A DNA stretch of 64,000 nucleotides. Source: Oceanobacillus iheyensis HTE831. Lineage in GTDB: Bacteria; Bacillota; Bacilli; Bacillales; Amphibacillaceae. The stretch is from assembly GCF_000011245.1 (NCBI RefSeq), contig NC_004193.1, positions 1,032,501 through 1,096,500 on the forward strand, in the 5' to 3' direction. Position 1 is the stretch's first letter, and every line of letters begins with the position of its first letter. The notes beneath the pieces are model-generated. The model saw only the letters and a list, made by a program, of their open reading frames with translations. It did not search any database and was not told the DNA's origin. The translations under genes were made by a program, and so were the position numbers. Positions 4,472 to 17,347 of the stretch are shown one piece after another.

Positions 4472-5233
4472 TTAAAATGCAGCTGTCCATCCGCCATCTG
4501 CTGTTACAACGGTTCCGTTAACGAAGCTTGCGTCATCAGATGCTAAGAAAAGCGCCACTTGTGCAATCTCTTCAGGTTGTCCAACACGTGGCATTACACC
4601 TTGAACTGCTTTTGTACGTCCAAAACCAAACTCATTGAATCCTTTTAACGAAGAGGTAATATTAGTAGCAACACCACCTGGAGCAATGGCATTACAACGA
4701 ATGCCGCTATTTGCATACATATAACCTGTATTTTTGGTTAAACCAATTACAGCATGCTTAGAAGCGCCATATGCAGCACCAGCGTGTGCACCATTTAAAC
4801 CTCCGGTAGAAGCAGTATTTACAATAACACCGCTTTCTTTTTCAAGGAAAATTGGTATAGCTTTACGCATTGCACGCATAACACCTTTTGTGTTTATATC
4901 AAAAATAAGGTCCCAACGGTCATCCTCAACATCACCAACTGCTTCAAAACCATCCATGATTCCTGCATTATTCACTAGAATATCTAATGTTCCGTAAGTA
5001 TCAACAGCAGTATCAATCATCTTATCAATATCCTCTTTTTGAGCAATATTAACTTTGATTGCAGTTGCAACTCCGTTATTGCTTGTAATTTCTTCAACAA
5101 CACTTTGTGCGCCTTCTTCATTCAAATCAGCGACAATTACTTTTGCTCCTTCACTAGCATATAGAGTAGCAATGGCTTTCCCCATACCAGATGCCGCCCC
5201 AGTAACAATAGCTACTTTGTCTTTTAATTTCAT
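4472..5233 (-). CDS. SDR-family oxidoreductase
   Basis: A 253-residue classical short-chain dehydrogenase/reductase. Cofactor motif TGAASGMG at 11-18, NNAG at 86-89, catalytic Tyr153 and Lys157 in YGASK, and a C-terminal NGTVVTADGGW. Asp at the end of beta-2 (IVADLNEEG) suggests NAD(H) rather than NADP(H). The substrate is unknown; the family covers glucose, 3-hydroxyacyl and many other dehydrogenases. A TetR gene is divergently transcribed, with a 22-bp palindrome between them that overlaps the probable promoter of this gene. Confidence 0.88.
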   Translation of the reverse strand: MKLKDKVAIVTGAASGMGKAIATLYASEGAKVIVADLNEEGAQSVVEEITSNNGVATAIKVNIAQKEDIDKMIDTAVDTYGTLDILVNNAGIMDGFEAVGDVEDDRWDLIFDINTKGVMRAMRKAIPIFLEKESGVIVNTASTGGLNGAHAGAAYGASKHAVIGLTKNTGYMYANSGIRCNAIAPGGVATNITSSLKGFNEFGFGRTKAVQGVMPRVGQPEEIAQVALFLASDDASFVNGTVVTADGGWTAAF

Positions 5234-5254
5234 TTCAACATCCCCTTTATCAAT

Positions 5255-5276
5255 TTATTGTACATCTGTTCAATAA
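5255..5276. promoter_or_regulatory. Palindromic operator between SDR and TetR genes
   Basis: TTATTGTACA-TC-TGTTCAATAA is a 22-bp inverted repeat with 9 of 10 arm positions matching. It lies a few bases downstream of a minus-strand TATAAT (complement of 5279-5284), where RNA polymerase would start the SDR message. A TetR dimer bound here would block it. The link to the neighbouring TetR gene is inference from position. Confidence 0.6.
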
Positions 5277-5380
5277 AAATTATACTGTAAGATAGAGATG
5301 GTTCCTATAAAAATAAGTTATGGTTTTTGATTAATCGACAGTTCTTCTTAAACATGTCTAATAAAAGGGGGATGAATAAA

Positions 5381-5941
5381 TTGAAAAAAGATCTTCGTAT
5401 CATAAAGACAGAAAAAAACATCCGAACTGCATTGTTTTCTTTACTAAAGTCCAAGTCATTAGAAGATATAACGGTATCTGAACTCTGTCGTAAGGCTCAT
5501 GTAAATAGAGGAACATTTTATTTGCATTACGGAAATATTCAAGATGTATTTAAACAAACTTTTGAAGAAATAGTGGAGGATTTAAAAATATCGTACGATG
5601 AACCATATAAACAGACAAACGATAATATTAATCAACTAGACGCAAATATGATACGAATATTTGATCATGTGAAAAGACATCAAAATTTTTATGAAATCGT
5701 ATTCAATGAGCGTATTCCAATGACGTATTATTACTCTGTTTTTGATCGAATTCGTTTGTTGATGTCTTATTCCATTGAAAAAGCGTTGACGACAACTACT
5801 AATATAGATAAGGATTATTTATTAAGCTATCAAACGAATGCAATTCTTGGTTTGTTAATTCAATGGCATCGAAAAAATTATGGAACACCTGTAATGGAAT
5901 TGAATAAACACTTATTAAAAATTATAAATTTCAATAGTTGA
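5381..5941 (+). CDS. TetR/AcrR-family transcriptional regulator
   Basis: TTG at 5381 is the likely start: GGGGG at 5367-5371 lies nine bases upstream, while the in-frame ATGs at 5354 and 5372 lack a spaced site. The 186-residue product has an N-terminal helix-turn-helix (about 8-52) with the TetR signature ITVSELCRKAHVNRGTFYLHY, followed by a helical ligand-binding domain of the DhaS/YsiA-like type. It is divergent from the SDR, with a palindrome in the gap, so it probably represses that gene and perhaps itself. Confidence 0.87.
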   Translation: MKKDLRIIKTEKNIRTALFSLLKSKSLEDITVSELCRKAHVNRGTFYLHYGNIQDVFKQTFEEIVEDLKISYDEPYKQTNDNINQLDANMIRIFDHVKRHQNFYEIVFNERIPMTYYYSVFDRIRLLMSYSIEKALTTTTNIDKDYLLSYQTNAILGLLIQWHRKNYGTPVMELNKHLLKIINFNS

Positions 5942-6099
5942 ATCAATTTCATGATTGTTACATTGGCAAAAGGAGAGAATACTAAAGGAACCCATTAATT
6001 ATGTAACTTTTTACCACATTAAATTGTTAAATAGTATAGACTTTATTATCAGATTATTGTTATTATAATGAGAATACAAACAGATTGGAGGAAGATGTC

Positions 6100-7074
6100 T
6101 TGAAATCTTTAGAGAAAGTAAGCATTTTTGCAGGTAATACCTTTGCGATATGGGTGTTGTTATTTGGGGTGATTAGTTTTATTTTTCCAAGTGGATTCTC
6201 TTGGATCGCTCCACATATTTCGCTACTTCTTGGAATTATTATGTTTGGAATGGGGTTGACACTTACTCCAAATGACTTCAAAGGGGTAATAAAGACACCG
6301 AAAAGTGTATTAATTGCTGTAATATTGCAATATACCATTATGCCAATTATTGCATATTGTCTTGCTGTAGTTTTTCAACTTCCTCCAGCAATTGCGGTGG
6401 GAGTCATACTAGTAGGGTGTTGTCCGGGTGGCACTGCGTCTAATGTTATGACATATTTAGCTAAGGGTAATACTGCGTTATCCGTATCCGTGACAACAAT
6501 ATCTACATTAATTGCACCAATTATGACACCTACATTAACATTGTTATTAGCGAGTGAATGGATGGCTGTCTCATTTATGAGTATGTTTATATCCATTATA
6601 CAGGTAGTATTACTACCAATAGTGCTAGGTGTAGGGGTACGTATGTTATTCCGTAATCAAGTGGAAAAAAGCGTATCGGTTCTACCGCTTGTATCTGTAA
6701 TCGGAATTGTTGCAGTAGCAAGTGCGGTTGTTGCCGTAAATACTGAAGCAATTGCAACATCAGGTTTATTGATTTTTGGAGTTGTTATGCTACATAATTT
6801 ATTAGGTTTATTCTTAGGATTTCTCATTGCAAAATTAGCTAAACTCGATTTTTCCGATCGAAAAGCAATATCGATTGAAGTAGGTATGCAAAATTCTGGC
6901 CTCGCTTCAACGCTTGCATTAACAGCTTTTGCAACAACACCAGTTGCCGCTGTACCAAGCGCGATTTTCAGTGTATGGCATAATATATCTGGGCCATTAT
7001 TAGCAACATATTGGTCAAAAAAGGGCGATAAAGATATTTCCATTATCCAAGAAAAAGTTGAAAATCTAGGATAA
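6100..7074 (+). CDS. Bile acid:sodium symporter-family transporter
   Basis: A 324-residue membrane protein of the BASS/SBF superfamily with about ten hydrophobic segments. Diagnostic blocks are GMGLTLTPNDF (about 47-57), the unwound GCCPGGTASNVMTYLAKGN (about 107-125) and EVGMQNSGLASTLA (about 257-270), which build the two Na+ sites. TTG at 6100 is chosen because TTGGAGG at 6085-6091 is the ribosome binding site. Bacterial relatives carry pantoate, pyruvate or other organic anions with Na+. A monocistronic gene; the substrate is not evident. Confidence 0.87.
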   Translation: MKSLEKVSIFAGNTFAIWVLLFGVISFIFPSGFSWIAPHISLLLGIIMFGMGLTLTPNDFKGVIKTPKSVLIAVILQYTIMPIIAYCLAVVFQLPPAIAVGVILVGCCPGGTASNVMTYLAKGNTALSVSVTTISTLIAPIMTPTLTLLLASEWMAVSFMSMFISIIQVVLLPIVLGVGVRMLFRNQVEKSVSVLPLVSVIGIVAVASAVVAVNTEAIATSGLLIFGVVMLHNLLGLFLGFLIAKLAKLDFSDRKAISIEVGMQNSGLASTLALTAFATTPVAAVPSAIFSVWHNISGPLLATYWSKKGDKDISIIQEKVENLG

Positions 7075-7167: not shown

Positions 7168-7197
7168 TTGAAAATAAACCGTCTGGGTAGTATAGTG
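7168..7197 (+). promoter_or_regulatory. Promoter and operator O1 of the TetR regulator gene
   Basis: TTGAAA (7168-7173), 17-bp spacer and TATAGT (7191-7196) form a sigma-A promoter. The spacer and -10 carry AACCGTCTGGGTAGTATAGT (7177-7196), the same motif found twice before the next gene, which indicates autoregulation by the TetR protein encoded just downstream. Confidence 0.75.
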
Positions 7198-7238
7198 AAA
7201 TTAATTAAAAAATATCAATTGTGCTGAGGATGATGAAT

Positions 7239-7814
7239 TTGTCAAAACAATCACGTAAAATCACAATCCTGAATGCAGCATCAGGAATCGTAAGTGAAAA
7301 AGGGATTTTCAATTTAACATTAGAGGCTGTAGCGAAAGAGGCAGGAATTAGTAAAGGCGGGTTGTTATATCATTTCCCTTCTAAGGAAGCTCTTGTAAAA
7401 GGGATGGTGGAACACTTAGCACAAAACTATCAAAATAAAATAAGTGATAATGTTGAGAGAGATCCATTGGAGAGAGGTAAGTGGACGAGATCATTTTTAA
7501 ATGTAACTTTCAACCAAGGATATCCGAATAAAGATATGCATGCTGGACTATTAGCAGCCAAAGCGGTTAATCCTAAATTGATGGCTCCGCTTCATGATGC
7601 GTATGAAAAATGGCAAGGTAATATTGAAAATGATGGGTTAGACCCGATTGATGCAACAATCATTCGTTTAGCAGCAGATGGTATTTGGTTAGCTGAACTT
7701 TTAGAACATTATAATATAGATAATGAAAAGAAGAAAGAAGTATATAAAAGGCTCCACGAATGGATTCAGGATTTATATATGAAAGCAGAAAAGAAAGAGA
7801 AAGATAGCGATTAA
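7239..7814 (+). CDS. TetR-family regulator of the carnitine module
   Basis: The start is TTG at 7239, eight bases after GAGGA; GTG 7221 and the ATGs at 7230/7233 are too close to or upstream of that site. The 191-residue protein has a TetR helix-turn-helix (about 7-52, with VAKEAGISKGGLLYHFPSKEALV) and a C-terminal ligand domain of the TetR_C type seen in DUF849-linked regulators. Operators with the same sequence lie on its own promoter and on the promoter of the downstream catabolic operon, so it probably represses both until carnitine or an intermediate binds. A hairpin terminator follows directly. Confidence 0.87.
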   Translation: MSKQSRKITILNAASGIVSEKGIFNLTLEAVAKEAGISKGGLLYHFPSKEALVKGMVEHLAQNYQNKISDNVERDPLERGKWTRSFLNVTFNQGYPNKDMHAGLLAAKAVNPKLMAPLHDAYEKWQGNIENDGLDPIDATIIRLAADGIWLAELLEHYNIDNEKKKEVYKRLHEWIQDLYMKAEKKEKDSD

Positions 7815-7844
7815 AACTACCTAAGTGATTAGGTAGTTTTTTTT
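7814..7844 (+). terminator. Intrinsic terminator of the TetR gene
   Basis: Arms AAACTACCT (7814-7822) and AGGTAGTTT (7831-7839) with an eight-base loop, followed by a T run, starting at the TetR stop codon. Confidence 0.85.
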
Positions 7845-7882
7845 ATGAGAAATAACGAACAATAAAAAAGTGAAAAAGGGTG

Positions 7883-7950
7883 TTGATATAAAACCGTCCA
7901 GATGGTATAGTAACACTTGTGAATAATTAACCGTCTGAACGGTACAGTAT
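7883..7950 (+). promoter_or_regulatory. Carnitine operon promoter with operators O2 and O3
   Basis: TTGATA (7883-7888), 17-bp spacer and TATAGT (7906-7911) form a sigma-A promoter with operator O2, AACCGTCCAGATGGTATAGT, at 7892-7911. Operator O3, AACCGTCTGAACGGTACAGT, follows at 7929-7948 inside the leader. O3 contains a perfect ACCGT-CTGA-ACGGT palindrome. Starts of O2 and O3 are 37 bp apart. The sites match O1 at 7177. Confidence 0.78.
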
Positions 7951-7989
7951 TTGAATATATATAGATCAAAATTTATAGGAGGGGATAAG

Positions 7990-8868
7990 ATGGCTAAAAA
8001 AGTTATGTTAACTGCTGCTGTTACAGGAGCAGGAGATACTATTCAAAAAAATCCTAATGTTCCGGTTACACCGAAGGAAATTGCCGAATCTGCGATTGCT
8101 TCTGCAAAAGCAGGTGCCACAGTTGCACATGTTCATGCAAGAGATCCAAAAACAGGTGGAATTAGTCATGATGTAGAACATTATCGTGAAATCGTAGATC
8201 GAATTCGTGATTCAGAAACAGATGTAATTATAAACATTACTTCTGGTGGTGGTGGAGATTTTATTCCAAGTTTAGATACACCATCAGCTGGAGGAAATGG
8301 TACAGATATCCAGATTCCATCCGAACGACATAAACCTGTTGGCGAATTACTGCCAGAGATGTGTACATTGGATTGTGGTTCAACCAATTTTGGCGACATG
8401 ATCTACATGAGTCCAACTGATTGGTTACGTGAACAGGCGGCACTCGTGCGAAAAAGTGGAGTGAAGCCAGAACTTGAATGTTTTGATACTGGACATATTC
8501 ATTTTGCAAATCAGCTAATTAAAGAGGGATTAATTGATAATGATCCGATGTTCCAATTTTGCCTCGGAATTCCATGGGGAGCAGATGCTGAATTAGACAC
8601 ATTGCTGTATATGAAGGGACGTATTCCGGAAAATGCTCACTGGTCTGCATTTAGTATTGGACGAAATCAATTACCAATGGTAACTCAGGCTGCCCAACTT
8701 GGAGGAAATGTAAGAGTTGGACTAGAAGATAACATTTATTTAAAAAAAGGTGTATTAGCAACAAATGAAGCCTTAGTAGATCAAGCGGTAAATCAATTAC
8801 ATGCAAATAATATAGAAATAATGACTCCTCAAGAAGCAAGAGAGGCTTATAACTTAAGAGGTAAATAA
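7990..8868 (+). CDS. 3-dehydrocarnitine cleavage enzyme (BKACE / DUF849)
   Basis: ATG at 7990 follows AGGAGGGG by six bases; 292 residues. It belongs to the beta-keto acid cleavage enzymes, which condense a beta-keto acid with acetyl-CoA to give acetoacetate and a new CoA ester on a Zn-dependent TIM barrel. The zinc-ligand block HVHARD (about 47-52) and the C-terminal VRVGLEDN are present. In its context before L-carnitine dehydrogenase and a thioesterase, the likely reaction is 3-dehydrocarnitine plus acetyl-CoA to betainyl-CoA plus acetoacetate, as for Pseudomonas CdhB. First gene of a six-gene operon. Confidence 0.85.
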   Translation: MAKKVMLTAAVTGAGDTIQKNPNVPVTPKEIAESAIASAKAGATVAHVHARDPKTGGISHDVEHYREIVDRIRDSETDVIINITSGGGGDFIPSLDTPSAGGNGTDIQIPSERHKPVGELLPEMCTLDCGSTNFGDMIYMSPTDWLREQAALVRKSGVKPELECFDTGHIHFANQLIKEGLIDNDPMFQFCLGIPWGADAELDTLLYMKGRIPENAHWSAFSIGRNQLPMVTQAAQLGGNVRVGLEDNIYLKKGVLATNEALVDQAVNQLHANNIEIMTPQEAREAYNLRGK

Positions 8869-8882
8869 AGGGGAAATCCAAA

Positions 8883-9806
8883 ATGAAGAAAGTAGCTGTT
8901 ATTGGTACAGGAGTAATTGGTAATGGATGGATTACTCGTTTTCTTGCAAACGGGTGTGAAGTTGTAGCTCATGATCCTGCACCAGGGGCAAAAGAAAGAA
9001 CAATACAAGCAATCGAGAATGCTTGGGAATCAGTAGAACAATTAGGATTAAAAGAAGGTGCATCCAAAGATTCTCTTACTTTTGTGGATAGTATTGAAGA
9101 AGCGGTTAAAGATGCAGATTTAATTCAAGAAAGTGTACCAGAACGATATGAATTAAAACACGGCGTACTTAAAGAAATTGATCGTTTTGCACATTCGAAT
9201 ACAATTATTGGATCTAGTACTTCTGGAATTAAGCCAACAGACTTACAAATAGGCTTAAATCATCCGGAACGTTTAGTAGTAGCTCATCCATTCAATCCAG
9301 TTTATCTACTTCCACTCGTAGAAATCGTTGGTGGAGAGGCAACAACAAAAGAAATTACGAATAGGGCATCGGTATATTATGAATCTTTACAAATGAAACC
9401 TATGGTAATTGAAAAAGAAATTGAAGGATTTGTAGCAGACCGTTTAATGGAGGCACTTTGGCGTGAAGCATTGCATCTGGTAAATGACGGTATCGCGACA
9501 ACCGAAGAAGTAGATAAAGCAATTACTTATGGCGCTGGTTTACGTTGGGCGCAAATGGGACCATTTATGACGTTCCATTTAGCTGGAGGAAATGCAGGCA
9601 TGAGACATATGCTAGAACAATTCGGACCAGCATTAAAATTACCTTGGACGAAACTAGAAGCACCGGAGTTAACAGATGAATTAAAAGAACGTGTTATTCA
9701 AGGCTGTGAAACACATGCTAATGATCGGTCTGTCGAAGAGTTAGAGAAAAAGAGAAATGAATTTTTAGTAAAACTTATTGATCTTGTCGAAGATTATTGG
9801 CCATAA
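8883..9806 (+). CDS. lcdH: L-carnitine dehydrogenase
   Basis: A 307-residue NAD-dependent enzyme of the 3-hydroxyacyl-CoA dehydrogenase superfamily. Rossmann motif GTGVIGNG at 8-15, Asp31 at the end of beta-2 for NAD+, and the catalytic region VVAHPFNPVYLLPLVEIV. The C-terminal domain block GAGLRWAQMGPFMTFHLAGG is characteristic of L-carnitine dehydrogenases as opposed to fatty acid enzymes. It oxidises L-carnitine to 3-dehydrocarnitine. It lies 14 bases after the cleavage enzyme gene. The Pseudomonas equivalent is CdhA. Confidence 0.88.
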   Translation: MKKVAVIGTGVIGNGWITRFLANGCEVVAHDPAPGAKERTIQAIENAWESVEQLGLKEGASKDSLTFVDSIEEAVKDADLIQESVPERYELKHGVLKEIDRFAHSNTIIGSSTSGIKPTDLQIGLNHPERLVVAHPFNPVYLLPLVEIVGGEATTKEITNRASVYYESLQMKPMVIEKEIEGFVADRLMEALWREALHLVNDGIATTEEVDKAITYGAGLRWAQMGPFMTFHLAGGNAGMRHMLEQFGPALKLPWTKLEAPELTDELKERVIQGCETHANDRSVEELEKKRNEFLVKLIDLVEDYWP

Positions 9807-9822
9807 GAGGTGACATGAAAAG

Positions 9823-10293
9823 ATGGATAGAATGTTTAACTTCAAATCAGAAGTAAAACCAGAATGGGTAGATTATAACGGTCATATGAATGATGCCGCA
9901 TATGCTGCTGTTTTCAGTTATGCAGTGGATTCTTTAATGGAGTTTTTTGGCCTGACGAAAGAAGTCATCGAGAATGAAAAATACACACTGTTTACTTTGG
10001 AAACGCATCTTTGTTACTTAAATGAAGCTTATTTAGGTGAAGAACTTCACGTAGATTTGCAATTGTTGGATGTAGATTCCAAACGATTACATGCATTTTT
10101 TACGATGAAAAATGCAAAAGAAGTTGTTATTGCAACCAGTGAGCAAATGCTTATGGGGATGGATCAAGAAATAGGAAAGCCAGCACCGTTTCTACCTCAT
10201 GTAAAAGAAAATATTGATCATGTTTGGAATAACCATCAATGGATAGAGAAACCGAAACAAGCAGGAAGAGTAATAGGAATAAAGAAAAAATAA
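9823..10293 (+). CDS. Hotdog-fold thioesterase, probable betainyl-CoA thioesterase
   Basis: A 156-residue 4HBT-type thioesterase. The N-terminal WVDYNGHMNDAAYAAVF carries the usual Asp/Asn-Gly-His-Met block with the catalytic acidic residue and helix start. AGAGGTGA at 9806-9813 provides the ribosome binding site. After 3-dehydrocarnitine cleavage it would hydrolyse betainyl-CoA to glycine betaine and CoA (CdhC role in Pseudomonas); this substrate is inferred from operon position. In some genomes the same domain is fused to carnitine dehydrogenase; here it is separate. Confidence 0.8.
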   Translation: MDRMFNFKSEVKPEWVDYNGHMNDAAYAAVFSYAVDSLMEFFGLTKEVIENEKYTLFTLETHLCYLNEAYLGEELHVDLQLLDVDSKRLHAFFTMKNAKEVVIATSEQMLMGMDQEIGKPAPFLPHVKENIDHVWNNHQWIEKPKQAGRVIGIKKK

Positions 10294-10325
10294 TAATTTA
10301 TTGTGAAATTTGAAGGAGAGTATAC

Positions 10326-11522
10326 ATGAATAAGATTGAAGTAAATCAATTAACGAAGATTTTTGGCTCTCATTCAAAAAAAGGATTACAACTACTTGAA
10401 GAGGGTTATACAAAAGATGAAATTTTAAAGAAATCTGGTAATACTGTCGGTGTTAATAATGTATCTTTTGATGTAAAAAGTGGTGAATTCTTCGTGATTA
10501 TGGGACTTTCTGGTAGTGGTAAATCTACCTTGATTCGATTAATTAATCGATTAATTGAACCGACTAATGGCTCCATTAATATTGATGGAGATGATATCAC
10601 GAAGATGAATAAGGAACAGTTGATCGAGACAAGAAGAAATAAGTTAGGAATGGTATTTCAAAATTTTGGATTGTTTCCTCATCGAACTGTTATTAATAAT
10701 GTATCTTACGGTCTTGAGATTCAAGGCGTTTCTAAAGAAGAAAGAAATAAGAAAGCTTACAAATCAATTGAAGATGTTGGTCTGAAAGGCTATGAAAATA
10801 GCTATCCGAACGAACTTAGTGGTGGAATGCAGCAACGAGTTGGTCTCGCAAGAGCATTAGCCAATGATACTGATATTCTACTAATGGATGAGGCTTTTAG
10901 CGCACTTGATCCACTTATTAGAAAAGAAATGCAAGATGAGTTATTAAAACTTCAAAATACATTAAATAAAACTATTCTTTTTATTACGCATGATTTGGAT
11001 GAAGCATTGAAATTAGGCGACCGAATTGCAATTATGAAAGATGGCGAAATTGTTCAAGTCGGTACCTCAGAAGAGATTCTTGAGAATCCTGCAAACGAAT
11101 ATGTAAGTAATTTCGTGAAAGATGTTGATCGTTCCAAAGTATTGGATGCTGGAACGGTTATGCGGAAACCAGAAGTACTGACCACGTATAAAGATGGACC
11201 GCGAATGGCAGTACGAAAAATGGAAGAAGTAGGGGCGTCTAGTATTTTCGTTGTTGACCGTCAAGATCATTACAAAGGTTTACTAACAATTGATGATGCC
11301 ATTCGTTCTTATAAAGAAGATATCCCTATGGAAGATGTATTACAAACAGAAATTTATCAAACAACTCCAAGTACTCCTTTAAGTGATTTAATTGGAATAG
11401 CTGCGGATACAAAATACCCAATCGCCGTTGTTGAAGAAGACAAGTTAGTTGGGATTGTATCACGAGTATCCATTCTATCAGGTCTAGTTCTAGGAAAGGA
11501 AAACGCGGAGGTGAATGAATAA
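10326..11522 (+). CDS. Quaternary-amine ABC importer, ATPase subunit with CBS domains
   Basis: A 398-residue ATPase of the ProV/OpuAA/OpuCA class. Walker A GLSGSGKST (about 60-68), Q-loop FQNFGLFPHRT, signature LSGGMQQR, Walker B DILLMDEAFSALDP and switch His in FITHDLDEA. Two CBS motifs follow from about residue 275, a feature of osmotically or c-di-AMP-regulated betaine/carnitine transporters. It precedes the permease with a one-base TAATG overlap. Being in the carnitine catabolic operon, it most likely drives carnitine (or choline-like) uptake. Confidence 0.9.
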   Translation: MNKIEVNQLTKIFGSHSKKGLQLLEEGYTKDEILKKSGNTVGVNNVSFDVKSGEFFVIMGLSGSGKSTLIRLINRLIEPTNGSINIDGDDITKMNKEQLIETRRNKLGMVFQNFGLFPHRTVINNVSYGLEIQGVSKEERNKKAYKSIEDVGLKGYENSYPNELSGGMQQRVGLARALANDTDILLMDEAFSALDPLIRKEMQDELLKLQNTLNKTILFITHDLDEALKLGDRIAIMKDGEIVQVGTSEEILENPANEYVSNFVKDVDRSKVLDAGTVMRKPEVLTTYKDGPRMAVRKMEEVGASSIFVVDRQDHYKGLLTIDDAIRSYKEDIPMEDVLQTEIYQTTPSTPLSDLIGIAADTKYPIAVVEEDKLVGIVSRVSILSGLVLGKENAEVNE

Positions 11523-12352
11523 TGGATTATTTTTATTTACCACTAGAACAGTGGATGAATGAATTCGTTAATGGATGGTTTCTACCAACGTTTAGTGGTA
11601 TATTCAACGTCATTAGTGAAGTTTTTAACATATTTATCGGTGGAGTTACAGATTTATTATTATTGATCCCAGCAGAACTATTTACTATTATTCTAGCATT
11701 AATAGCTTGGAAGGTATCTGGCATTGGTTTAGCTGTTTTTACTATAATAGGATTTTTATTTATTGGTTCTGTGGATATGTGGGAAGGAGCTATGCAGACA
11801 CTTGCAATTATTATTGTAGCAACCCTTGTCTCTCTCGTTATAGGTATACCTGTGGGAATATTAAGCGCCATGAATGATGGAGTACAACGAATCGTGCGAC
11901 CAATCCTAGATTTCATGCAAACTTTACCGAGTTTTGTGTACCTAATTCCTGCAGTCTTATTATTTGGTCTAGGCGGTGTCCCAGCAGTGATGGCTACATT
12001 TATATTTGCTGCTCCTCCAGCTGTTCGCATGACTAATTTAGGTATTCGAAGTGTACCAAAAGAGATTGTTGAAGCTTCTCGAGCATTTGGTTCTACAAAT
12101 AAGCAACTATTATATAAAGTTCAAATTCCATTAGCGATACCAAGTATCATGGCAGGAGTAAATCAAACAATTATGCTTTCCCTGTCAATGGCTGTTGTGG
12201 CTTCTATGATCGGAGCACCAGGATTAGGTGCATCTGTATTAACAGCTATTTCTCAAGTGAATATTGGATTAGGTTTGGTAGCTGGTTTGGGAATTGTTGT
12301 CTTAGCAATTGTTCTTGATCGGATTACACAAGGAATTGGTAAAGGAAAATAA
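11522..12352 (+). CDS. Quaternary-amine ABC importer, permease subunit
   Basis: A 276-residue permease of the OpuAB/ProW type with an N-terminal amphipathic lead, about six to seven hydrophobic segments and the BPD-transporter EAA-like loop EIVEASRAFGSTNKQLLYKVQIPLA split across about 178-203. Its start codon shares one base with the ATPase stop, and the binding-protein gene begins after only three bases, so the three subunits are translated together. Confidence 0.9.
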   Translation: MDYFYLPLEQWMNEFVNGWFLPTFSGIFNVISEVFNIFIGGVTDLLLLIPAELFTIILALIAWKVSGIGLAVFTIIGFLFIGSVDMWEGAMQTLAIIIVATLVSLVIGIPVGILSAMNDGVQRIVRPILDFMQTLPSFVYLIPAVLLFGLGGVPAVMATFIFAAPPAVRMTNLGIRSVPKEIVEASRAFGSTNKQLLYKVQIPLAIPSIMAGVNQTIMLSLSMAVVASMIGAPGLGASVLTAISQVNIGLGLVAGLGIVVLAIVLDRITQGIGKGK

Positions 12353-12355
12353 TCG

Positions 12356-13243
12356 ATGAAAGGATTGTTTAACATAATGAAGAAGTTTACTATTGTTTTA
12401 TCACTGTTTACATTACTATTTTTAGCAGCCTGTGGATCTAGTAATGAAGAATCAACGGATGCTAGCGAAAGTAAGGGAACGATTAATTTAGCTGTAACTC
12501 CATGGACGAGTACAGTGCCTCCAACAAAAATTGCACGTATTATCATTGAAGACATGGGTTATGAAGTGGAAGAAACACAGGCAGATGTGAGTTCGACCTT
12601 TGTTGGTCTTTCTCGCGGGGACTTAGACGCATATATGGATTCATGGATGCCAGCGCATGAAAATCAGATGGAAAAGTATTCAGATTCAGTTGAAAAAGTA
12701 ACTACAAGTTACGATAATGCAAATACTGGATTAACAATTCCTTCGAATTTAGAGGGAATAAATAAAGTAAGTGATCTAAAAGGAAAAGAAGATCAATTTG
12801 GTAATAAGATTTATGGAATTGAAGAAGGCGCTGGTGCAACAGAAATGATGCGCGAGTTAATTGAAGAAGCAGATTTAGACTTAGAATTAGTTCCGTCCTC
12901 AGAAGGTGGAATGCTAGCTCAAGTACAACGAAAAATATCTAGCGATGAGCCAGTGATATTCTATGGCTGGAGACCACACTCTATGTTTAATAAGTTTGAT
13001 ATTAAAGTATTAGAAGATGACTATAAAGTATTTACACCATCAACTGTAAATGTACTTGCGAATAATGGTTTGAAAGAAAAAGCACCGGATGTCTATGCAT
13101 TTCTACAAAACTGGAATATTTCTATTGATGAAGTAGAAGAGATGATTACGAAGATTGAAGATGGTGCAGATGAGCGTGAAGTTGCCCAAGAATGGATCGA
13201 TAATAATCAAGATAAAGTAAATAAAATGTTAGAAAACGAATAA
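12356..13243 (+). CDS. Quaternary-amine ABC importer, substrate-binding lipoprotein
   Basis: A 295-residue ProX/OpuAC-type lipoprotein. The signal runs to the lipobox LAAC; a second in-frame ATG at 12377 gives a more typical MKKF signal peptide and may be the true start. Trp residues in TPWTSTVPP, YMDSWMPAH and FYGWRPHSMF correspond to the aromatic cage that holds trimethylammonium groups. It closes the operon for carnitine import and conversion. The conserved cage fits betaine or carnitine; context favours carnitine. Confidence 0.88.
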   Translation: MKGLFNIMKKFTIVLSLFTLLFLAACGSSNEESTDASESKGTINLAVTPWTSTVPPTKIARIIIEDMGYEVEETQADVSSTFVGLSRGDLDAYMDSWMPAHENQMEKYSDSVEKVTTSYDNANTGLTIPSNLEGINKVSDLKGKEDQFGNKIYGIEEGAGATEMMRELIEEADLDLELVPSSEGGMLAQVQRKISSDEPVIFYGWRPHSMFNKFDIKVLEDDYKVFTPSTVNVLANNGLKEKAPDVYAFLQNWNISIDEVEEMITKIEDGADEREVAQEWIDNNQDKVNKMLENE

Positions 13244-13258
13244 AAGATAAACAATAGC

Positions 13259-13427
13259 ACGTTGGGACAAAACGATTTTTAACAAAAAAGCTTATAAACA
13301 ATACTTAGGAAATAAACTCGTTTATCTAGAGGTTGATTGAAAATCTTCCTCAATCTGATTGCTAGTTTATTTCAGAAAGCGTAAGTATTTTACTTTTGAG
13401 TTAAAATCAACTATTTTGTCCCAGCCT
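13259..13427. repeat. Long imperfect palindromic element with GGGACAAAA ends
   Basis: About 169 bp of non-coding DNA. The left end reads GTTGGGACAAAACGATTTT and the right end, read backwards on the other strand, GGCTGGGACAAAATAGTTGA. The inner parts also pair: AATACTTAGGAAATAAACT on the left against AATACTTACGCTTTCTGAAA on the right complement. The whole can fold as one long cruciform or RNA hairpin. It lies between two convergent genes and may also serve as their terminator. Its size and terminal symmetry suggest a dispersed MITE-like repeat; copy number cannot be seen here. Confidence 0.6.
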
Positions 13428-13430
13428 GTT

Positions 13431-15032: not shown

Positions 15033-15851
15033 ATGAAAAAGAATAAGTGGAGTTTGCTGATTGTATTGTCGGCGTTATTAATTTTCCTTGCGGCTTGCGG
15101 ATCCGGTGAAGAGGATTTAGCATCAGGTGAAGGAGAGGATGAAAGTAATAATGAGAGTTCTTATGATTTAGAGGAATCTTATACAGTAGTTAGTGATAAT
15201 TCTTTCGTTCCTTTTGAATTTGTAGAAGATGGGGAGTTAACAGGATTTGATATCGAACTAATTAAAGCTATTGCAGATGAAGCGGGATTTGAAATAGAAG
15301 GTGGAGAAATTCAAACAACCAATTTTGATGGAATCATCCCTGGACTTCAGACACAACAATTTGATATTGCTATTGCTGGAATAAGTATTACTGAAGACCG
15401 TAAGCAGGTTATCGATTACAGTGAACCTTATTATGAGTCCGGTTTGAAAATTGGGGTTTCAGCAGATAATGAAGATATTAATAGTATAGAAGATTTAGAA
15501 GGTAAAACAGTTGCTACTCGTATGGGTTCTACTAGTGCAGATTTTCTTGAAGAAAATACGGAAGATGCGACTATTAATCAATTCGAACAACTGGATCAGG
15601 TTTATTTAGCAGTGGAAAACGGAAGTGCTGATGCAGTGGTTTACGATGCTCCAAATGTTGATTATTATATATCCACAACAGGAGATGGATTAAAAACTGT
15701 TGGGGAATTATATCAAGCTGAAAATTATGGGATTGCCATTGCAAAAGGAAATGAAGACTTAGTTGCTGCGGTTGACGATGCGCTGGCAACGTTAAAAGAA
15801 AATGGTAAGTATGATGAAATTTATAATAAGTGGTTTGGTTCAGAAGAATAA
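15033..15851 (+). CDS. Polar amino acid ABC importer, substrate-binding lipoprotein
   Basis: A 272-residue family-3 solute-binding lipoprotein: signal with lipobox LAAC, an acidic Gly/Glu/Asp/Ser linker (about 23-44), then SDNSFVPFEF and GFDIELIKAIADEAGF, the N-lobe ligand motif, and YDAPNVDYYIS in the second lobe. Arg in the RMGSTSADF block would bind the ligand carboxylate. AGGGGG precedes the start. The family includes glutamine, arginine and cystine binders; the ligand is not certain. A hairpin terminator separates it from the permease gene, so it can be made in excess. Confidence 0.88.
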   Translation: MKKNKWSLLIVLSALLIFLAACGSGEEDLASGEGEDESNNESSYDLEESYTVVSDNSFVPFEFVEDGELTGFDIELIKAIADEAGFEIEGGEIQTTNFDGIIPGLQTQQFDIAIAGISITEDRKQVIDYSEPYYESGLKIGVSADNEDINSIEDLEGKTVATRMGSTSADFLEENTEDATINQFEQLDQVYLAVENGSADAVVYDAPNVDYYISTTGDGLKTVGELYQAENYGIAIAKGNEDLVAAVDDALATLKENGKYDEIYNKWFGSEE

Positions 15852-15900
15852 TTTAGTCAGCATTAAGTTTGAGGTAGCTATATAAAATTTTAAAGCTTAT

Positions 15901-15936
15901 AAGGCTTATCCAAAGAAGATAAGCCTTATTTTATTT
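15901..15936 (+). terminator. Attenuating terminator between binding protein and permease genes
   Basis: Perfect arms AAGGCTTATC (15901-15910) and GATAAGCCTT (15918-15927) with a seven-base loop, then ATTTTATTT. It lies within an operon, so partial read-through would set binding protein above permease. Confidence 0.8.
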
Positions 15937-15950
15937 AATGAGGTGAAAGA

Positions 15951-16625
15951 ATGGATGCTATTGGAAGAATATTAGAATTTGATTGGTTTCGTGTGTTTGA
16001 ATTTTTACCTGAGCTAGGAAAAGGCTTGTATTACACACTCTTAATTTCGATTGTTGGTTTACTCATTGGTTTTGTTCTTGGAGCGATATTTGGACTTGGA
16101 CGAATCTCTAAAAATAAATTTTTATTTGTATTGGCGTCTATCTATGTAGAAGTAGTAAGAGGTACGCCTGTACTTGTACAAGCAATTTGGATATTCTTTG
16201 CCTTACCAATAATAATTCAATATAATTTTGACCCTATTGTAGCGGGGATTATTGTTATTGCAATTAATTCAGGTGCGTATATCGCGGAAGTTGTTCGAGG
16301 ATCAGTAGATTCTATTGATAAAGGTCAAATTGAAGCTGGGCGTTCACTCGGACTGACTAAAAATCAAACCATGAGGTATATTATTTGGCCACAGGCTTTT
16401 AAACGAATGATACCTCCATTAGGAAATCAATTTATCATTAGTATCAAGGATACTTCATTACTATCTGTTATCCTGGTGCCAGAGTTAATGTTTCAAGGTA
16501 GATTAATAGTATCCAATCAATTTATTGCAGTTGAAATATATACTGCTGTGGCATTATTTTATCTAGCAATCACATTAACACTATCGTTAATATTACGATT
16601 AATTGAAAGAAGGTTGAATTACTAA
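15951..16625 (+). CDS. Polar amino acid ABC importer, permease
   Basis: A 224-residue HisM/GlnP-type permease with five to six membrane spans. The EAA loop is [29 protein letters not shown] (about 127-155, quoted in part: conserved Glu-Ala, Gly-Leu and Pro-Gln-Ala). Typical block [15 protein letters not shown] (62-76) is present. The start is served by GAGGTGA at about 15940-15946, and the stop shares a base with the ATPase start. Confidence 0.9.
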
Positions 16626-17347
16626 TGATAACTGTAAATGATCTACACAAACGATTTGGAAAAAATGAAGTATTAAAAGGGATAAATTGTGAAGTTGAAG
16701 AGACAGAAGTTGTGTGTGTTATAGGTCCCAGTGGATCAGGGAAGAGTACATTTTTACGTTGTTTAAATCTATTAGAAGATGTTTCCGCCGGTAAGGTGGT
16801 TATTGATGGACATGATTTAACGGATAAAAAAACGAATATTAATACTGTGCGAACAGAAGTTGGAATGGTATTCCAGCAATTTAATTTATTCCCACATAAA
16901 ACAGTAATACAAAATGTAATGTTAGCTCCACAAAAAGTAAGAAAAATTACAAGCGAAGAGGCGAGAAAACGTGGGGAGATATTGCTAGAAAAGGTTGGCT
17001 TATCAGATAAAGCAAATCAATATCCTGCTCAGTTATCTGGAGGACAACAGCAACGGGTTGCGATAGCAAGAGCATTGGCGATGGAACCGAAGCTTATGCT
17101 ATTTGATGAGCCCACTTCGGCTCTTGACCCAGAATTAGTGGGAGAAGTATTAGAAGTTATGAAACAATTGGCTAAAGAGGGTATGACAATGGTAGTGGTT
17201 ACACATGAAATGGGTTTTGCTAAGGAAGTAGCGGATCGTGTTTTATTCATGGACGAAGGAATTATCATGGAGGAAAATACGCCAGATAAGATTTTTACCA
17301 ACCCTGATTCCGAAAGAACAAAGGAATTTCTAAATAAAGTATTATAG
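16625..17347 (+). CDS. Polar amino acid ABC importer, ATPase
   Basis: A 240-residue GlnQ-type ATPase. Walker [10 protein letters not shown] (34-42), Q-loop [11 protein letters not shown], signature LSGGQQQR, Walker [14 protein letters not shown] and switch His in VVTHEMGFA. No extra domain. It is the last gene of the binding protein-permease-ATPase set and is followed by an intrinsic terminator. Confidence 0.92.

Follow-up and report, generated by a model that had tools for sequence, protein, structure and literature searches.

A predicted TetR-controlled carnitine-to-glycine betaine module in Oceanobacillus iheyensis, with a constant enzyme core and exchanged partners among its relatives

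How a Gram-positive bacterium may convert L-carnitine to glycine betaine, and what governs the conversion, are the questions raised by seven co-directional genes of Oceanobacillus iheyensis HTE831. The genes occupy positions 7221-13243 of the stretch of 64,000 nucleotides analyzed here (the window), which corresponds to bases 1,032,501-1,096,500 of a single-contig genome of 3,630,528 bases. They encode a TetR-family repressor, a BKACE enzyme (CdhC-like), an L-carnitine 3-dehydrogenase (LcdH; CdhA-like), a hotdog thioesterase (CdhB-like), and the ATPase, permease, and binding lipoprotein of an OpuA-type ATP-binding cassette (ABC) importer (Table 1). A sequence-only reading had described them as a carnitine-to-betaine module with its own importer and repressor. 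Assignments from Pfam and NCBIfam recovered all seven genes at the positions it gave, and confirmed the enzyme set, the presence of the importer in the same operon as the enzymes, and the family of the TetR regulator, to which predicted operators can now be added. The likely role of the locus is to scavenge carnitine, under induction by the substrate, and to convert it to glycine betaine.

The enzymes show the features of the CdhCAB pathway, with an LcdH at the threshold of its family model, a BKACE gene beside it, and a thioesterase of the fused model described below. A single 495-position model of a fused carnitine dehydrogenase (NF005716) matches both the dehydrogenase (positions 5-304) and the thioesterase (positions 349-494), and the two are therefore tied together. 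The chemistry is that of the known Pseudomonas CdhCAB route, in which we take CdhC to be the BKACE and CdhB the thioesterase. LcdH would oxidize L-carnitine with NAD to 3-dehydrocarnitine, the BKACE would combine this product with acetyl-CoA to give betainyl-CoA and acetoacetate, and the thioesterase would hydrolyze betainyl-CoA and release betaine.

Relatives were compared over 111 distinct loci, made up of 42 loci from a search of 299 genomes of the order (window included) and 80 named loci, less 11 with a repeated BKACE; the named loci are the best 80 of 562 confirmed relatives and not a census. LcdH was found in 42 of the 299 order genomes, that of O. iheyensis among them, and the BKACE, LcdH, and thioesterase genes are adjacent in all 42 loci. 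A thioesterase-like open reading frame (ORF) is present in 110 of the 111 loci, with none beside LcdH in locus rows L134, L164, and L170, and rows L129, L145, and L178 show an overlapping ORF in place of LcdH. The linked BKACEs carry an H-x-H pattern in 105 of the loci and a GLED-type pattern in 107, both presumably motifs of the family. A linked importer of the OpuA, OpuC, or BCCT type was counted in 66 loci: 24 have an OpuA-type importer, one of these together with BCCT, 19 an OpuC-type importer, and 23 a BCCT-type importer only (counted from 30% identity). No importer was counted in the other 45, including L180, whose OpuC binding protein lies at the identity threshold. Regulators around the core also vary between TetR, GbsR-like, and AraC types. 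For the GbsR-like regulator of L057 the closest match is CudC, at a score under the CudC cut-off. Of the 42 loci that lack both TetR and GbsR, 29 contain, at some position, an AraC-type regulator like that of L141, which is reminiscent of Pseudomonas. A tree of 72 Bacillota-type rows requires at least four regulator changes and at least eight importer changes, rows without a regulator or importer being omitted. The BKACE, LcdH, and thioesterase genes are a constant core, around which importer and regulator are exchanged. Within the genus, the one other Oceanobacillus genome sampled is without LcdH at E 1e-50. LcdH does occur in three named Oceanobacillus records: L113 combines it with OpuA and TetR, and L162 and L174 with OpuC and GbsR.

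Control by the TetR protein is suggested by three near-copies of an operator like ACCGTCYRRRYGGT (O1-O3) on the two predicted promoters. With at most one mismatch allowed, and between 300 bases before and 90 bases after the BKACE ORF start, such a site was found in 45 of 47 TetR-linked loci, none of 22 GbsR-linked loci, and 1 of the 42 remaining loci. After letter shuffling, 0.2% of upstream regions reach the same level. The lone site in the last group belongs to L061, which is truncated by a contig end, so that a TetR gene may lie beyond it. The two TetR-linked misses are L048, where sites precede the TetR gene, and L173, where a site has two mismatches. C occupies the third position in 48 of 59 sites and A in the other 11, and the remaining positions match ACCGTCYRRRYGGT with few exceptions. 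Two or more sites occur in 15 TetR loci, with 35-39 bp between the first and the second. In a tree of the 111 dehydrogenases, built by a quick method, the TetR loci L068, L077, and L164 are placed among GbsR loci and still carry perfect sites. Within the window, three occurrences of an 18-letter form of the motif (at most two mismatches) compare with 0.09 expected from shuffled sequence, the pattern having been derived from these same sites. Across the O. iheyensis genome, the relaxed pattern ACMGTCYRRRYRGT has five matches, namely O1-O3 and two others (997886 and 1230228); since both of the latter lie inside ORFs, the repressor looks local, and the candidate of a wider TetR regulon finds no support in this genome. 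As a separate observation, Aquibacillus saliphilus harbors two carnitine modules in one genome (L105 and L112), the second with no TetR gene and no operator found.

The genes are probably organized as a separate TetR unit and a six-gene operon, because the TetR and BKACE genes are separated by a hairpin resembling a terminator (7813-7840), followed by a second promoter-like pair (7883-7911). The earlier description of one operon thus holds from the BKACE to the binding protein, whose genes are spaced by between a 1-nt overlap and 32 nt, but probably not for TetR. A good ribosome site precedes the BKACE start codon (ATG 7990). Promoter-like pairs in this region are no more common than in shuffled sequence (35 found versus 35.4 expected), and the promoter calls therefore rest on their overlap with the predicted operators. 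Through O1, TetR would repress its own gene, and through O2 and O3, 37 bp apart, the six-gene operon, until carnitine or an early pathway product releases it.

Uptake of L-carnitine would fall to the importer, which has the features of an OpuA-type system (a ProV-type ATPase with tandem CBS domains, a ProW permease, and an OpuAC protein). CBS domains gate OpuA systems by ionic strength or c-di-AMP, and the ATPase probably gates this importer in the same manner. The binding protein has its best solved relatives in 2reg, a choline/betaine binding protein, and in OpuA-type betaine proteins. Three tryptophans that likely form an aromatic cage (W50, W97, and W205) are invariant in the 24 linked binding proteins, as are Y119 and W253, which differ in two paralogues of the same genome. 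These conserved residues suggest a specialized pocket and do not identify its ligand; the aromatic cage recognized previously is likely, but cannot discriminate carnitine from betaine. The genome also encodes eight BCCT proteins and four further OpuAC-domain proteins; its PF04069 places number six, of which two share one ORF. Carnitine may therefore enter by other carriers too, and the terms "self-contained" and "dedicated" applied to the module were overstated.

Of the two products, acetoacetate could be activated by a CoA-transferase pair encoded elsewhere, for which two adjacent ORFs at 2.70 Mb are candidates; a pair that could use acetoacetate agrees with its proposed feed into carbon metabolism. 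Betaine would mostly be kept as an osmolyte. The reported lack of a betaine demethylase near the operon is borne out, and genome-wide searches found no PF00848 protein (the family to which GbcA and CntA presumably belong), no MttB-family protein, and a single GCV_T protein, the same searches having given matches in some control genomes. On these grounds betaine is probably kept, although a betaine-homocysteine methyltransferase (BHMT)-like protein weakens this proposal, as described below.

Several observations weigh against the carnitine-scavenging reading. The LcdH score lies exactly at the NF005471 cut-off (414 bits), and the BKACE reaches no NCBIfam cut-off. The operator pattern was first spotted by eye at this locus, and the looser pattern ACCGTYNNNNNGGT shows no enrichment genome-wide, with 22 matches versus 49 for a reversed control; the one match elsewhere that was inspected, a palindromic one at 2277085, is inside an ORF. 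The association of TetR with the site across loci could arise from shared descent alone. Of five independent tree pairs on well-supported branches, on average 3.6 are for the link, 0 against, and 1.4 undecided, and the median p is 0.125, so few pairs being unable to reach 0.05. The three cage tryptophans are common to two aligned paralogues of the same genome, and the ligand could be betaine. The best NCBIfam model for the lipoprotein is a choline-binding one, at 187 bits against a cut-off of 379. Lastly, a BHMT-like protein of 349 residues, encoded at 727 kb and far from the operon (G000:C1:727315-728142; L100:1393-2442), matches the mammalian enzyme at E 1e-44 over most of its length and might demethylate betaine. 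Over the routes covered (PF00848, MttB, GCV_T, and BHMT), betaine is probably retained for the most part, with a possible drain to methionine synthesis.

Among the alternatives, the one that survives best, possible but doubtful, places osmoprotection first, with a salt-induced operon, an importer that takes both betaine and carnitine, and enzymes that upgrade carnitine, the weaker osmolyte. The CBS domains of the ATPase are consistent with this, and many hosts among the best 80 of 562 relatives have salt-related names. In Staphylococcus xylosus in salted meat, opuCABCD and lcdH are up 24.8-fold and 22.8-fold, respectively (from the first of the three columns given, read as the 24 h values), which the authors read as a salt response in the published passages (PMC4742526). 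However, the comparison was between a minimal-medium inoculum at 0.017 M NaCl and pork at 0.47 M NaCl, and carnitine and salt therefore changed together; an alternative reading of the meat data would be induction by carnitine rather than a response to salt. At the O. iheyensis locus, a cognate TetR with predicted sites also points to a specific ligand and not to salt.

It is unlikely, and somewhat more so, that betaine or choline, not carnitine, is what the importer and TetR recognize and that the enzymes are co-transcribed by history. The cage tryptophans shared with paralogues and the relationship to 2reg favor such a ligand, and the published passages on OpuA/OpuAR describe a repressor, OpuAR, that responds to choline and betaine (PMC6207618). 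The TetR protein, however, is of a different family from GbsR/OpuAR and scores 43.7 bits against the BetI equivalog (TIGR03384), whose cut-off is 201.3 bits, and the enzymes of the operon would consume carnitine. Moreover, S52, present in all 24 linked proteins, occupies the position of an aspartate in the choline protein that presumably takes part in choline binding, though the paralogues have T and S there. That the enzymes act on another beta-hydroxy acid, such as a different trimethylammonium or aminohexanoate compound, is very improbable. In its favor, BKACE enzymes have many substrates, and the model of the lysine fermentation cleavage enzyme Kce (NF052387) gives 267 bits. Against it, the Kce cut-off is much higher, at 382 bits, LcdH scores at its own equivalog cut-off, the thioesterase matches the fused carnitine dehydrogenase model, and the linked BCCT, OpuC, and OpuA partners are families of quaternary-amine carriers.

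The exchange of partners around the carnitine module may extend to ester-cleaving enzymes. A CocE/NonD hydrolase (counted from 45% identity) lies near Bacillales operons in 23 of the 111 loci, two of them typed. It is linked in 15 of 23 OpuA loci and 8 of 19 OpuC loci, but not in the one locus with OpuA and BCCT, in any of the 23 BCCT loci, or in any of the 45 importer-less loci; on independent tree pairs the association with the importer is not significant (median p 0.5). The gene is at L040:12177-13859 and at the same place in L041-L046, L101, L104-L106, L108, L113, L116, and L119, and further cases are L057, L066, L067, L136, L153, L160, L162, and L174. A PF00756 esterase follows the carnitine-OpuC operon in three of four Staphylococcus loci (L173:9788-10549 and L180:13159-13923, both typed, and L177, by similarity), and an Abhydrolase_3 protein is encoded near Halomonadaceae operons (two typed). 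In Acinetobacter, the published passages on an unrelated carnitine cluster place an acylcarnitine hydrolase gene beside a carrier (PMC6562126), and by analogy the hydrolases near the relatives' operons may cleave acylcarnitines. CocE was rejected as a part of the O. iheyensis operon, where the gene is absent; the L040 CocE query had no match in this genome, a search with no positive control.

A wider proposal, for and against which the balance is about even, is that an undescribed group of TetR proteins recognizing ACCGTCYRRRYGGT runs carnitine-to-betaine modules in Bacillaceae, Planococcaceae, and Staphylococcus, with a fixed core, exchanged importer, regulator, and esterase, and CocE in the role of HocS. 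If so, a plug-in module would couple nutrient sensing to osmolyte upgrading, and a CocE-type hydrolase, as the candidate acylcarnitine esterase family of Bacillales, would open acylcarnitines as a feed in relatives. It would also suggest a way for bacteria of salted food or marine habitats to turn host-derived carnitine into betaine, and makes the regulator, operator, and inducer of Gram-positive carnitine use testable.

Table 1. Predicted features of the carnitine locus, in window positions.
Feature	Position	Strand	Basis
TetR promoter, TTGAAA-17-TATAGT	7168..7196	+	consensus match only
Operator O1, ACCGTCTGGGTAGT, inside TetR promoter	7178..7191	+	motif match
TetR-family repressor gene	7221..7814	+	TetR_N and TetR_C_28 domains
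Terminator-like hairpin between TetR and BKACE	7813..7840	+	consensus match only
Catabolic/import operon promoter, TTGATA-17-TATAGT, TG before second hexamer	7883..7911	+	consensus match only
Operator O2, ACCGTCCAGATGGT, between hexamers of operon promoter	7893..7906	+	motif match
Operator O3, ACCGTCTGAACGGT, 37 bp from O2, downstream of second hexamer	7930..7943	+	motif match
BKACE (CdhC-like) gene	7990..8868	+	PF05853, 333 bits
L-carnitine 3-dehydrogenase (LcdH/CdhA-like) gene	8883..9806	+	NF005471, 414 bits, cut-off 414
4HBT_2 hotdog thioesterase (CdhB-like) gene	9823..10293	+	NF005716 positions 349-494, E 6e-36
OpuA/ProV-type ATPase gene, two CBS stretches	10326..11522	+	TIGR01186 proV, 476 bits, cut-off 327
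OpuA/ProW-type permease gene	11522..12352	+	Pfam/NCBIfam match
OpuAC-domain binding lipoprotein gene	12356..13243	+	Pfam/NCBIfam match

For the TetR gene, TTG 7239 is a likelier start than 7221, judging by a GAGG upstream. The surroundings of the operon hold several other features. Directly 3' of it, a stretch of about 170 bp (13258-13428) with 15-nt inverted ends that are 87% complementary is perhaps a small repeat element, present in one copy within the window. Farther downstream (15033-17347), a binding protein, permease, and ATPase, read from their translations, resemble an ABC importer of the polar amino-acid type and are unrelated to the carnitine module. Upstream, at 4472-7074, lie genes for an SDR dehydrogenase, for another TetR protein, and for a carrier similar to PanS/bile-acid symporters; near the carnitine genes of relatives, one SBF match was seen (in L067), along with weak SDR matches at a few loci.

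Known systems place the O. iheyensis module in context; those of Pseudomonas and S. xylosus are likened to it by published description. In Pseudomonas aeruginosa, the caiX-cdhCAB-hocS operon with CdhR is a carnitine dehydrogenase operon that yields glycine betaine (PMC5806209). Both operons lead from carnitine to betaine and include a gene for a binding protein (CaiX in Pseudomonas). As far as the published passages go, they differ in that CaiX works with the CbcWV importer, whereas a full OpuA-type importer is encoded here; in that the Pseudomonas operon is governed by a divergent AraC activator, CdhR, instead of a TetR repressor; and in that it includes hocS, for hydrolysis of short-chain acylcarnitines, whereas no esterase is encoded in the operon described here. 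The Arctic SAR11 island likewise holds a carnitine dehydrogenase and a BKACE near a betaine-type ABC importer, but is described as a Gram-negative island of 17-20 genes that include gamma-butyrobetaine dioxygenases and choline dehydrogenase (PMC12421898). In Bacillus infantis, an OpuA-type importer is under a repressor encoded adjacent to it, OpuAR, which is of the GbsR family and not TetR, and the published passages name no carnitine enzymes (PMC6207618).

A further published likeness is that of S. xylosus, a Gram-positive bacterium with LcdH beside an ABC carnitine importer. Its opuCABCD and lcdH genes (SXYL_00486 and SXYL_00488-91) were read as importing and then oxidizing carnitine (PMC4742526; PMC5620643), the carnitine-to-betaine reading recurs in a genome review (PMC5620643), and lcdH was 4.9- and 3.9-fold up in a dairy matrix (PMC7698506). 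The importer is OpuC there and OpuA here, and the published passages name no regulator, BKACE, or operator. S. xylosus is outside the locus set, in which the Staphylococcus relatives L173, L177, and L180 have the order TetR-BKACE-LcdH-thioesterase-OpuC. With this pairing already in print and the module in 42 of 299 order genomes, the novelty implied for a Gram-positive locus that joins LcdH to a transporter is not supported; the interpretation given in the sequence-only reading otherwise keeps its enzymes, importer, and repressor. Among the matches listed in the literature searched, which leaves most subscription journals outside, no TetR regulator or operator of Gram-positive carnitine use appears. 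Beside these known systems, the TetR repressor and its predicted DNA sites look new, as does the exchange of importers among relatives.

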